From positions 1 to 20,482 of the IMG/VR virus record IMGVR_UViG_3300040801_004248: a stretch of DNA of 20,482 nt; one strand, given 5' to 3'. The position numbers were made by a program, and so were the translations under genes. How positions within the stretch are numbered: the first letter of the stretch is position 1; each line of letters opens with the position of its first letter. The stretch is from a virus. Below, piece by piece: positions 945 to 15,839 of this stretch. The notes under the pieces are model-generated. The model saw only the letters and a program-made list of their open reading frames with translations, searched no databases and had not been told where the DNA came from.

Positions 945-2015
945 TTATACTGATCTATCTATAATTCCAACACCTAACATACGTGGATCCAAACATGCAA
1001 ACCCAATTTCCTCCCATCCAAAAAACCCAGCTTTCTGAACTCTTAAAAGAGTAGGATCATCATACGCTTCGTACTCTTTACGAATAGGCATTACTAACGA
1101 ATCATTAACACTAAGGTCAAAACCAACAACTTGTGTTTCGCCCAAAGTAGATACAGTACCGTCTGCAGCAGTAATATTCGGATTATCCAGCGAATAAGCA
1201 TTATACTCATCATTAACATCGGCAATAAACTTACCATAAGCTGAACCATTACCATTAATATTATACAAACCAGTTGCACCAAGGTGCTGCACTACATTTA
1301 ATGTTACATTCCAGATACTACCCATACCAGCAGCTTGAAAAATCTCTCGCCTAGTTATAGGATCAATATCTGTATCCGTCCATTCTCTTATGTCCGCCGC
1401 ATCCTCAGGCGAAACATACAAATCAGTCAACTTACGACCAATTCTCTGAAAACCAACTATCATTTTATTAATAAGCTCTTTTGAAAGATACCCAGCACCA
1501 GTAGATGCAGGATTAATTTCATAAATAGGAGCTGGACGTGATCCAAGTAATCCCTTTCCAAAAAATCTAGAAGTAGCCGCGGGTAAAATAACCCTCCAAC
1601 CACATTCCTCTTCATAATCTGCCAAAGCTTTAGCAGCTTTCTCAGCAGCTCGAGCTGCAATATCAATCCTCGAATCCCTAGCATAAGTAAGTTTCCAATC
1701 ACCAGTCGCATCAACGGTAAATGTAGGAACATATACTTCCTCACCAATACCTTCTATAAAATTCTGAGCGACATAACCAAGACCCGGTAATACCCAAACT
1801 GGAATTTCAAAATCTTCAGCCACAGGATAACTAGCCTGTGCACCAGGCCCTAATCTCTCGACAGCAAATAACTGCCTCATAATGGAATCTCTTTCTATTG
1901 CTTGAAGGATTGGAGTAGTAAGAGCAGCAGCAAATGCTTTATATGCAATCAATCCTTCTGGAGTATTGATAGCAGCAGTAGCTTTAAACAGATCTTGCAT
2001 TTCTTTTCTATCCAT
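945..2015 (-). CDS. Major capsid protein (HK97-fold type, inferred)
   Basis: This 356-residue protein is the last gene of the head module, after protease, scaffold and a decoration-like protein, which is the usual place of the major capsid protein. The length suits an HK97-fold subunit. The N-terminal region is helical with Ala-rich segments, residues about 60-125 are beta-rich (an extended-loop-like part), and an Ala-rich helix (AARAAEKAAKALADYEEEC) near residues 119-137 resembles the long spine helix. The C-terminal third has strand-rich domain features. No signal peptide or membrane segment is present. GGAGGA lies 11 bases before the ATG, a slightly long spacing. No family motif is decisive; the call rests on order, length and composition. 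Confidence 0.75.
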   Translation of the reverse strand: MDRKEMQDLFKATAAINTPEGLIAYKAFAAALTTPILQAIERDSIMRQLFAVERLGPGAQASYPVAEDFEIPVWVLPGLGYVAQNFIEGIGEEVYVPTFTVDATGDWKLTYARDSRIDIAARAAEKAAKALADYEEECGWRVILPAATSRFFGKGLLGSRPAPIYEINPASTGAGYLSKELINKMIVGFQRIGRKLTDLYVSPEDAADIREWTDTDIDPITRREIFQAAGMGSIWNVTLNVVQHLGATGLYNINGNGSAYGKFIADVNDEYNAYSLDNPNITAADGTVSTLGETQVVGFDLSVNDSLVMPIRKEYEAYDDPTLLRVQKAGFFGWEEIGFACLDPRMLGVGIIDRSV

Positions 2016-10697: not shown

Positions 10698-11183
10698 TTA
10701 CCTTTCCAAGTCGATATCATTAATTGAGCATTTTATAAGTCTACCTGATCCAAATAATTCTATGGACACTACTAAATTATCACCATCAATATCCACTACT
10801 ACACATTCCATATCTACAAAAGGTGTTCCTATCAACTTATAAGTATTTCCTTTTTGCAGTTCACTGTCTGGTACCAAATCACCATACCTCTTATTAGACA
10901 ATGCTGAAACACTCTCCATCTCTTTCTCTGAACATTTACCAATATAATCTTTTATCCAGTTATTATTAGATATTTCATTATGTAATTGAATATTATGTTC
11001 ATATTTAGTAAATATATAGTTGTTAAATAATGGTACATCTTTAGTTTTTTTACCCGATTTAGTTTCATAATCTTTAACTACTGTAGGGTAAAAACACTCA
11101 CTAATTCCAGGCAACCTATCTAAAAACTCTTTCACCCTCTTATACTTTTGTGGATTTATTGTCCAAATATGCCATTGCGACAT
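10698..11183 (-). CDS. NusG-like transcription elongation factor
   Basis: This 161-residue protein has the two-domain pattern of NusG/RfaH. The N-terminal part (MSQWHIWTINPQKYKRVKEFL ... FYPTVV ... KKTKDVPLFNNYIFTKYE, residues 1-95) matches the NGN domain, including the P-L-F-x-x-Y-I-F signature. The C-terminal part (KGNTYKLIGTPFVDMECVVVDIDGDNLVVSIELFGSGRLIKCS, about 111-152) matches a KOW domain. NGN binds the RNA polymerase clamp; KOW contacts partners such as ribosome, Rho or NusB/E. It would be a paralogue of the host NusG that redirects elongation or antitermination on phage operons. A strong AAGGAGAGG lies before the ATG. Confidence 0.8.
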   Translation of the reverse strand: MSQWHIWTINPQKYKRVKEFLDRLPGISECFYPTVVKDYETKSGKKTKDVPLFNNYIFTKYEHNIQLHNEISNNNWIKDYIGKCSEKEMESVSALSNKRYGDLVPDSELQKGNTYKLIGTPFVDMECVVVDIDGDNLVVSIELFGSGRLIKCSINDIDLER

Positions 11184-11195
11184 TTAAACCTCTCC

Positions 11196-11447
11196 TTAAT
11201 CCTGATTTAATTTTTCAACTTTAGTAGTTTTTTTACAATTATGGCACACACACATAATTGTATTTATAGGAGCAAACAACACTCCACTACATTCTATACA
11301 TTCAAATCTAGTATATCTTTTATCTTTTTTCGGTTTAGAAAATTTAAAGGGTAAGTTCTTATAGTCATCTGCTATCTTACTCTCCCTATGAATTTTTTCA
11401 TTGTGTTTTCTTTCTCCTATGTCTGGCAACCATCTACGGTCTGACAC
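11196..11447 (-). CDS. Small zinc-ribbon protein
   Basis: This 83-residue protein starts at GTG (11447) with AAGGAG eight bases upstream and overlaps the end of the HNH gene by 31 bases in another frame. The N-terminus is charged. The C-terminal half holds a four-cysteine zinc ribbon (FECIECSG ... CVCHNCKK, Cys pairs near residues 50-53 and 69-73). Such single ribbons bind nucleic acid or proteins; a specific role cannot be named. Confidence 0.65.
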   Translation of the reverse strand: MSDRRWLPDIGERKHNEKIHRESKIADDYKNLPFKFSKPKKDKRYTRFECIECSGVLFAPINTIMCVCHNCKKTTKVEKLNQD

Positions 11448-11752
11448 AACGTTATCTCCTTTTCCAATACTCTTATAAATTTTTCATTTATGTTTTTGTT
11501 ACTATGCACCCACCTATGACAATCCTCACATAAAGTTACCACATTGTTTATATCGAACAACAAACTGCAATTTTTAGCTTCCTCTATAGTGGTAATGTTA
11601 TATCGATTTATTATTTTCTTAAATGGGATAGTATGATGTGCATTTAGATTACCACCTCTAATACCACATTTTTGACAAATATAACCACCACAACCCTCTC
11701 TTTTTAATATGTGTTGGCTTTTCACCTTTCTCTGTGACAACCAATCTGCCAA
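11417..11752 (-). CDS. HNH endonuclease, probably mosaic or truncated
   Basis: The frame from TTG at 11752 to TAG at 11417 encodes 111 residues with a good HNH core: CQKCG (26-30), AHH (38-40), DINN (67-70), CEDCHRWVH (75-83). This keeps the His-Asn-His catalytic set and both zinc CxxC pairs, so the nuclease part looks intact. The start is poor: TTG with little ribosome site, four codons after an in-frame stop. In another frame the same DNA upstream (11786 to about 11690) reads IGKELDLLGNRFGRLVV, a typical N-terminus of another HNH/AP2-type phage endonuclease, so the gene may be a recombination product. It lies between the HD phosphohydrolase and the zinc ribbon genes. Confidence 0.7.
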   Translation of the reverse strand: MADWLSQRKVKSQHILKREGCGGYICQKCGIRGGNLNAHHTIPFKKIINRYNITTIEEAKNCSLLFDINNVVTLCEDCHRWVHSNKNINEKFIRVLEKEITLCQTVDGCQT

Positions 11753-14273: not shown

Positions 14274-14751
14274 TTACTCAGGAATTACTTCCTCTGCCTG
14301 CGTACCTTTATCAGTTTCCACTAATATAAAAGTAACTTTTTGTCCTGGCTGTAGAGTCTTATAAGACTCCATTAAAATGTATGAGTAATGAACAAAATAT
14401 TCTGTAGATTCATCCCCATCTTTCAACACAAAACCATACACTAATGTTCACACGGGATAGCTACTCCCGCACCGTTCTCTTATGAACTGCTCATAGTTTC
14501 CTATGAGGTCAGACTATATCAAAACCTTTTAAGGTCTCCCCCGTTTCGACTCGCTTGAGTCTACGAGCTGTCGCTCTAGTCGTTGAACGTTCCCTTTTAG
14601 GGCTTCGCTGCTGATTGTCCTCAGCATAATCTGTTAGAATATTCCAGCAATTAGAGGGATTTCGACGTAAAATTTCTCTTACGAAGGGCTAATAAGCACC
14701 GCGTTCTGCGTTGAACCATTTCACAATTCCACTAACTCTTTCTTCCGACAT
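14274..14751 (-). CDS. Cold-shock protein gene split by a group I intron
   Basis: Exon 1 (14751-14698, 18 codons: MSEERVSGIVKWFNAERG) plus exon 2 (14438-14274, 54 codons: YGFVLKDGDESTEYFVHYSY...) join to a 72-residue protein of the CspA family. RNP1 is RGYGFV, with the splice junction between Gly and Tyr (phase 0). RNP2 is YFVHYS. The end (LQPGQKVTFILVETDKGTQ) is typical too. These small OB-fold proteins bind single-stranded RNA or DNA, melt RNA structure and can act as antiterminators. Without splicing, translation stops after two intron codons. The ribosome site AGAGGAGG and the promoter at 14811-14840 drive it. It is fully intact once spliced. Confidence 0.88.
14439..14697 (-). ncRNA. Group I intron (259 nt, no endonuclease gene)
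   Basis: On the minus strand the intron follows a U (exon GGU) and ends in G, as group I introns do. Core pieces appear in order: P element AATTGCTGGAA (14652-14642), Q element AATCAGCAGCGAAG (14616-14603), R element GTTCAACGACTAGA (14588-14575), S element GATATAGTC (14520-14512). Helices can be drawn: P2 CGTAA/TTACG, P3 TCCCTC/GGGGGA, P4 TGCTG/CAGCA, P6 CCCT/AGGG, P7 GACTA/TAGTC, two P7.1/P7.2-like hairpins, P8 ACCTT/AAGGT and P9 CTCATAG-GAAA-CTATGAG (14507-14490). The GACTC-AAGC-GAGTCGAAACG segment resembles the T4 td intron, suggesting subgroup IA. P1 is weak (GGU/GCC with a U-G pair at the splice site). Confidence 0.88.
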
Positions 14752-14798: not shown

Positions 14799-14810
14799 TT
14801 ACATATATAT

Positions 14811-14840
14811 ATTATAGAATATTTTATTGTTTTTGCTAGA
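14811..14840 (-). promoter_or_regulatory. Phage promoter, copy 2 (cold-shock operon)
   Basis: This is a further match to TCTAGCAAAA-N9-TATTCTATAAT, with TATAAT at 14811-14816 and CTAGCA at 14834-14839, 17 bases apart. It lies just past the stop of the actin-like gene and is placed to transcribe the cold-shock gene and the genes after it, possibly through to the packaging module since no strong terminator is seen before 930. Confidence 0.82.
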
Positions 14841-14846
14841 TATTTA

Positions 14847-15839
14847 TTACAATGTTGAAGCAAGAAGAGCCCCATGAGACACACAGGTCATCGGGTCCTT
14901 AGCACTACGAATCTCCTTAACTTCAAAAGGAAATTGTTTTTTTACATACTCCAGCTTAAATTTCTCTACAAAATTATCAGCTAAAACTAACCCGCCGGAC
15001 AACACAATAGGGATAGGTTCCCTAAAAGCTGGAAGCTTAGACTTCTTTAACTCATAAACAATATTATTTAATACATAATTGATTAGAACGTTATAATAAA
15101 CCACAATAGCCTCTTGAATTTGTCCCTTTGTATTTAATAAATCTATATTTGATTCTTCCTTTTCAATTTGAATCATAGAAGGGTTTAAGTCAAGAGCTTT
15201 CCCCACCGAGTTATCTATCCAATCGCCCCCCTTAGTAACAGAAAATTCAACTATAGGGTCTCCTTCATAACACACCGATATATTTACCATTCCAGCTCCA
15301 AACGATAAACACATTCCTGTTAAATTATCATCCAATAACTCAGAAAACGCAACAGCAAACCCTTCATTTAAAGATTCTGCGCTAAAACCCATCTCTTTTA
15401 AATAAGCTTTCATCATAGCTTCATGATAAGAAATATCAAAATCACTATCTATAGGTTCGGATGGGATAGAAAAAACTAATTTATCACTTCCAGACCCTTG
15501 TCCTATTAGACTTTTAATAATAAGTTTAATCATCGGTAATGAAGATTTTTCCTTCGGGGACAGCACGCCTCTACTCATAGGGCGTCTAGCTTCTAAATTT
15601 CTTTCATTAGCCATACGCAAAGCACTCTCTCCCACCACAAAAAAATCATTTCCATCAATAATAAAATTTGATTTACGCCCCTCTAAAGCCATTTGAATAC
15701 TCTTACGGTTGACTTCTGATTTAGAGCTTATTTTTAAAAAAGCATCTCTCTGTTTTTTATATACAGGACGGCCTTCTTCGTTCATTGTAGCATGTACAAT
15801 CATGTTAGTACCTAAATCTAGCCCGTTTCCGTCACTCAT
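14847..15839 (-). CDS. Actin/MreB-like protein
   Basis: This 330-residue protein has the five-motif actin/Hsp70 pattern: phosphate-1 GLDLGTN (6-12), connect-1 LVFSIPSEP (121-129) with NEGFAVAFSE (158-167), phosphate-2 LSFGAGM (178-184), a GGDWID motif (204-209) like that of MreB and Hsp70, adenosine VLSGGLV (279-285) and connect-2 SHGALLAS (321-328). The Asp normally in phosphate-2 is Ser179, so ATP hydrolysis may be altered. Phage actin-like proteins can form filaments for DNA positioning or partition. It has AAGGAGG and follows the coiled-coil gene by 13 bases, and both share one promoter. Role in this phage is inferred; an Hsp70-type function is possible. Confidence 0.8.
   Translation of the reverse strand: MSDGNGLDLGTNMIVHATMNEEGRPVYKKQRDAFLKISSKSEVNRKSIQMALEGRKSNFIIDGNDFFVVGESALRMANERNLEARRPMSRGVLSPKEKSSLPMIKLIIKSLIGQGSGSDKLVFSIPSEPIDSDFDISYHEAMMKAYLKEMGFSAESLNEGFAVAFSELLDDNLTGMCLSFGAGMVNISVCYEGDPIVEFSVTKGGDWIDNSVGKALDLNPSMIQIEKEESNIDLLNTKGQIQEAIVVYYNVLINYVLNNIVYELKKSKLPAFREPIPIVLSGGLVLADNFVEKFKLEYVKKQFPFEVKEIRSAKDPMTCVSHGALLASTL

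Follow-up and report, generated by a model that had tools for sequence, protein, structure and literature searches.

The split cold-shock gene

The window analysed here is the whole stretch of 20,482 nucleotides of the virus record IMGVR_UViG_3300040801_004248. It contains a cold-shock gene (csp) on the minus strand, which is divided into two exons by 259 nt. Exon 1 (14698–14751) carries codons 1–18 (...KWFNAERG), and its 5' splice site lies after the U at 14698. Exon 2 (14274–14438) reads YGFVLKDGDES...VIPE, followed by a stop. A putative ribosome site (GAGGAGG) is located upstream of exon 1. Without splicing, the csp frame is closed after 20 codons (MSEERVSGIVKWFNAERGAY, then a stop). When the exons are joined, exact ligation restores the conserved reading frame, and a 72-aa cold-shock protein is obtained: MSEERVSGIVKWFNAERGYGFVLKDGDESTEYFVHYSYILMESYKTLQPGQKVTFILVETDKGTQAEEVIPE. 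The joined product matches Pfam CSD (PF00313) with 76.7 bits (cut-off 27), and exon 2 alone scores 52.3 bits. It contains the RNP1- and RNP2-like motifs RGYGFV and YFVHY. The exon junction falls between Gly18 and Tyr19 (ERG-YGFV), inside RNP1. The preliminary description was made from the letters of this DNA. Its coordinates, the 259-nt length, the preceding U, the terminal G and the Gly/Tyr junction are all correct, and its claim that a 72-residue cold-shock protein becomes readable on removal of 259 nt is borne out by the Pfam match. Its suggestion that a junction at so conserved a spot suits an element targeting conserved DNA is reasonable.

Exon 2 shares 65–80% identity with the corresponding part of related phage genes. 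A GTG/ATG directly before exon 2 was considered as an alternative start and rejected; it is missing in the related contig L041 and has no preceding ribosome site. The gene for an actin-like protein (14847–15839, minus; Pfam Volactin, 225 bits) adjoins csp here and in nearly all related phages. Between them, the TATTCTATAATATA stretch (14800–14845, minus) is conserved also in L041, L002, L005, and L006, and is likely a phage promoter; a consensus promoter scan gave a result no better than shuffled sequences. A NusG-like transcription factor (10698–11183, minus; Pfam NusG, 33 bits) is encoded beside the packaging genes.

Family membership and structure of the intron

The 259 nt between the exons (14439–14697, minus; terminal G at 14439) match the Rfam Intron_gpI model (RF00028) with 87.2 bits (E 8e-23) over all 253 model positions, and a second scoring gave the same value. 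The curated cut-off of this model is 50 bits. The match extends over 14490–14707 (minus) and spans P1 to P9 with the P, Q, R, and S elements. The covariance-model check thus upholds the earlier proposal that a group I intron interrupts this cold-shock gene. A gathering scan of the whole window with Rfam reported no Intron_gpI match, which we attribute to its speed filters because local searches score the same sequence far above the cut-off. BLAST found 76–80% similarity between part of the intron core and Staphylococcus phage BE04 and Streptococcus phage Str-PAP-1. The minimum-energy folding of the intron (z -2.85) is modest evidence by itself. No ORF of at least 50 aa was found inside the 259 nt in the open-reading-frame list, and the element is classed as an ORF-less intron. 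Decisive support comes from the covariance model together with independent homologues in two other phage contigs, L020 and L041. A group I intron whose removal yields the cold-shock protein is almost certainly present.

The structures of the three introns were compared helix by helix. All three are preceded by U and terminated by G, and all share the guide GCC and the exon sequence GGU. In the window, the internal guide GCCC lies at 14686–14689 (minus), of which GCC (14689–14687) pairs with the exon-1 end GGU to form P1, with a U-G pair at the cut. P1 is short, containing only these 3 bp. The Rfam alignment sets the -1 U against C; this P1 register was set aside in favour of the one common to the three introns, in which the required U-G pair forms. 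The P10 strand (14690–14692, minus) adjoins the guide, and its partner is the start of exon 2. In the window it makes two of the three pairs and has a mismatch; all three form in L020 and in L041, where pairs have changed. The P2 hairpin CGUAAGA-GAAA-UUUUACG (14666–14683, minus) shows compensatory changes in L020.

The core elements of the window intron are P AAUUGCUGGAA, Q AAUCAGCAGC, R GUUCAACGACUA, and S GAUAUAGUCU. P7.1 (GAGC/GCUC) and P7.2 (GACUC/GAGUC) sit between R, which is the 5' strand of P7, and the 3' strand of P3, presumably as in IA introns. These two helices are the feature expected of subgroup IA2, and as between IA1 and IA2 they may serve as a lead. P9.1 of the window pairs fully (GUUC/GAAC). 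About 205 of the 210 listed pairs in the three introns are standard. Two-sided compensatory changes occur in P2, P4, P7, P7.2, P9.2, and P10; in the P3–P9 core, P4 changes from UGCUGG/UCAGCA to UCAGGG/UCCUGA, and P7 changes from GACUA/UAGUC to GAUCA/UGAUC.

Sister introns and distribution

Related contigs were searched in IMG/VR with the joined csp protein and with exon 2, and more than 20 were found. Two of them carry sister introns. L020 (IMGVR_UViG_3300009537_000068) has a 254-nt intron at the identical site (site A), with 82.3 bits against RF00028. L041 (IMGVR_UViG_3300031692_000014) has a 268-nt csp intron with 68.2 bits, which lies 17 nt upstream (site B), after TGGT of the Trp-Phe codons. 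The conserved core is present in both; the same insertion without such a core in related phages had been named beforehand as a sign against an intron. In all three carriers, joining of the exons gives intact cold-shock proteins of 72–73 aa, and an in-frame stop occurs within the first three intron codons. The introns of the window and L020 share 84.2% identity, and the coding parts share 75.1%; the higher identity of the introns may reflect only the constraint on the ribozyme. A search of viral contigs with an intron-core pattern found only L020 and L041 besides the window, and a pattern search of bacterial genomes found none. Exon 1 is contiguous in 41 of 41 bacterial csp relatives.

An uninterrupted csp gene was found in about 20 related contigs (such as L002, L006, and L028), at the same locus in relatives; the search for intron-free alleles proposed earlier thus has a positive outcome. 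Most of these contigs have the gene order volactin, csp, a 154-aa protein, a 90-aa protein, dNMP kinase, and HD. Among the GenBank phage csp records, 87 of 92 contain most of the protein as a single piece, and these appear uninterrupted.

A phylogenetic tree was reconstructed from neighbouring proteins of 20 phages (three carriers and 17 intron-free rows). The carriers are separate on this tree. The window groups with the intron-free L002 and L006, L041 with the intron-free L005, and L020 with the intron-free L009; a clade of the window and L020 is rejected (p-AU 0.0006). The patchy distribution would be best explained by transfer of the intron between phages. Alternatively, the common ancestor of this phage group might already have had the intron in csp, with many later losses and no present mobility. 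The window and L020 share their site, and losses alone could scatter the carriers. However, the L041 intron occupies a different site, and gains need three changes on the tree, against many losses over the 17 intron-free rows. Moreover, both carriers with an intron at site A encode the Gly there by GGT, a codon found in only three of 19 intron-free alleles; the other 16 use GGA, GGG, or GGC. An ancestral origin is therefore rather improbable. Site B invariably reads TGGT because of the encoded amino acids.

Another explanation weighed for sites A and B is that the intron moved from one to the other inside csp, with guide-directed reverse splicing and recombination as the route. Both sites read GGU/U (the slash marks the insertion point), the guide is identical, and the window and L041 agree fully over 41 nt, from the guide through P3. 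However, GGU is only 3 nt long and common, no intermediate was seen, and the two sites are equally well accounted for if related introns were gained independently through endonuclease-led homing. Such a movement is considered unlikely, to about the same degree as the ancestral origin.

HNH endonuclease genes near csp

A free-standing HNH endonuclease gene (11417–11752, minus; Pfam HNH, 28.5 bits) lies 2.5 kb downstream of csp in the window. It is homologous to the HNH gene adjoining csp in L041, and is absent at the corresponding place in L041 and L047. HNH genes are common in phage genomes. All three carriers have an HNH gene within 3 kb of csp, as do 3 of the 22 distinct non-carriers; Fisher's test gives p 0.009, with no correction for relatedness. 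The distance from csp is about 1–2.5 kb in the window and L020, whereas the gene abuts csp in L041, and the carriers' HNH genes vary in their position and in details of family. The HNH gene of L041 (from 1969) is inserted directly behind the conserved promoter-like stretch, ahead of csp. In a frame different from that of csp, its ORF (1969–2874) continues across csp exon 1 and 159 nt into the intron, so that splicing would alter the C-terminus of the HNH protein.

Collaborative or trans homing has been described for F-CphI of cyanophage S-PM2, and for MobE and the nrdB intron of T4 (PMC3984707, PMC2988022, PMC6083498). L041 likewise has an ORF-less intron and an adjoining free-standing endonuclease gene. 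In contrast to these systems, the window HNH gene is 2.5 kb from csp, and csp is a putative target of the HNH proteins. The HNH-csp arrangement, seen here as proximity, plausibly fits collaborative homing as described (PMC3984707, PMC2988022), and the window HNH gene is a possible homing helper. The chance that homing is part of the explanation is put at about even.

Proposed splicing and spread of the intron

The explanation that we favour, with high but not full confidence, is an ORF-less IA-type group I ribozyme in the csp pre-mRNA, which is removed from the transcript and has spread by transfer, plausibly led by HNH endonucleases. The window intron is probably self-splicing. The guide GCC would pair with the exon-1 end GGU, and a guanosine cofactor would cut after the U of exon 1. 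Exon 1 would then attack after the terminal G of the intron, and the ligated mRNA would encode the 72-aa cold-shock protein. Splicing could be weak, given the 3-bp P1 and the P10 of 2 bp and a mismatch in the window. The in-frame stops in the first three intron codons would halt translation of the unspliced RNA, and ribosomes might thereby be kept out of the ribozyme core. Free-standing HNH endonucleases would cleave the intron-free csp alleles, and repair would spread the intron. The intron may be a passenger that occupies two sites in csp and persists because splicing hides it.

A degenerate element is very improbable. It would be of group I origin, with splicing lost and csp dead, as the short P1 and the imperfect P10 could indicate. 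However, the core helices are intact with compensatory changes, both exons are open in three phages, and a dead csp gene would be expected to decay. An insertion by sequencing or assembly error, conceivable for a single metagenomic contig, is refuted by the homologous csp introns in L020 and L041, and its probability is negligible.

The favoured ribozyme has much in common with known phage group IA introns (T4 td, nrdB, and nrdD; those of the Twort-like staphylococcal phages and Bastillevirinae). These share with it the P/Q/R/S core, P7.1/P7.2, the U-G pair at P1, the terminal G, and insertion in a conserved coding motif. The window intron differs from them in lacking an internal endonuclease ORF. 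Its host gene is a csp of 72 codons, whereas the usual hosts are polymerase, reductase, and terminase genes, that is, mostly replication, nucleotide, or packaging genes (PMC3984707). The intron-free phage csp genes (such as those of L002, L006, L028, and Vibrio phage pVa5) belong to the same protein family and have no insertion; in the close intron-free relatives the genes also follow each other as in the window (volactin, csp, kinase, and HD). Searches of the open-access literature turned up no cold-shock gene described as carrying a group I intron, in agreement with the preliminary description. As far as these searches reach, the host gene is new and the kind of element is already known.

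Cold-shock proteins are RNA chaperones, and a tiny RNA-chaperone gene is hereby added to the hosts of phage group I introns. If the intron splices, production of the cold-shock protein depends on the folding of its own mRNA, as was remarked at the outset. Another chaperone, StpA, promotes td splicing (PMC3017892). It might be speculated that the csp product aids or limits the folding of its own intron, the ribozyme being an autoregulatory switch that responds to temperature or dose, and that csp has been colonised repeatedly for that reason; we regard this as a long shot. A ribozyme in a cold-shock mRNA makes such feedback directly testable. The sister introns share one guide, occupy two sites separated by 17 nt in a 72-codon gene, and are scattered among phages that have free-standing HNH genes close by; they offer a compact natural case for the spread of ORF-less introns. 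Annotation pipelines would call the window csp truncated or missing.

Group I-like sequences elsewhere in the related contigs

In L055 (L020's contig, ~23.4 kb) and in L053 (L007's contig), the major capsid gene is split by introns that resemble group I and carry an endonuclease-like ORF. These introns score 44.5 and 38.8 bits, respectively, below the Rfam cut-off. The capsid gene of the window (945–2015) is intact. The contig of L009, whose csp is intron-free, has two further weak group I intron matches at G009:C1:41846-42015 and 60857-61001 (32.3 and 38.1 bits).
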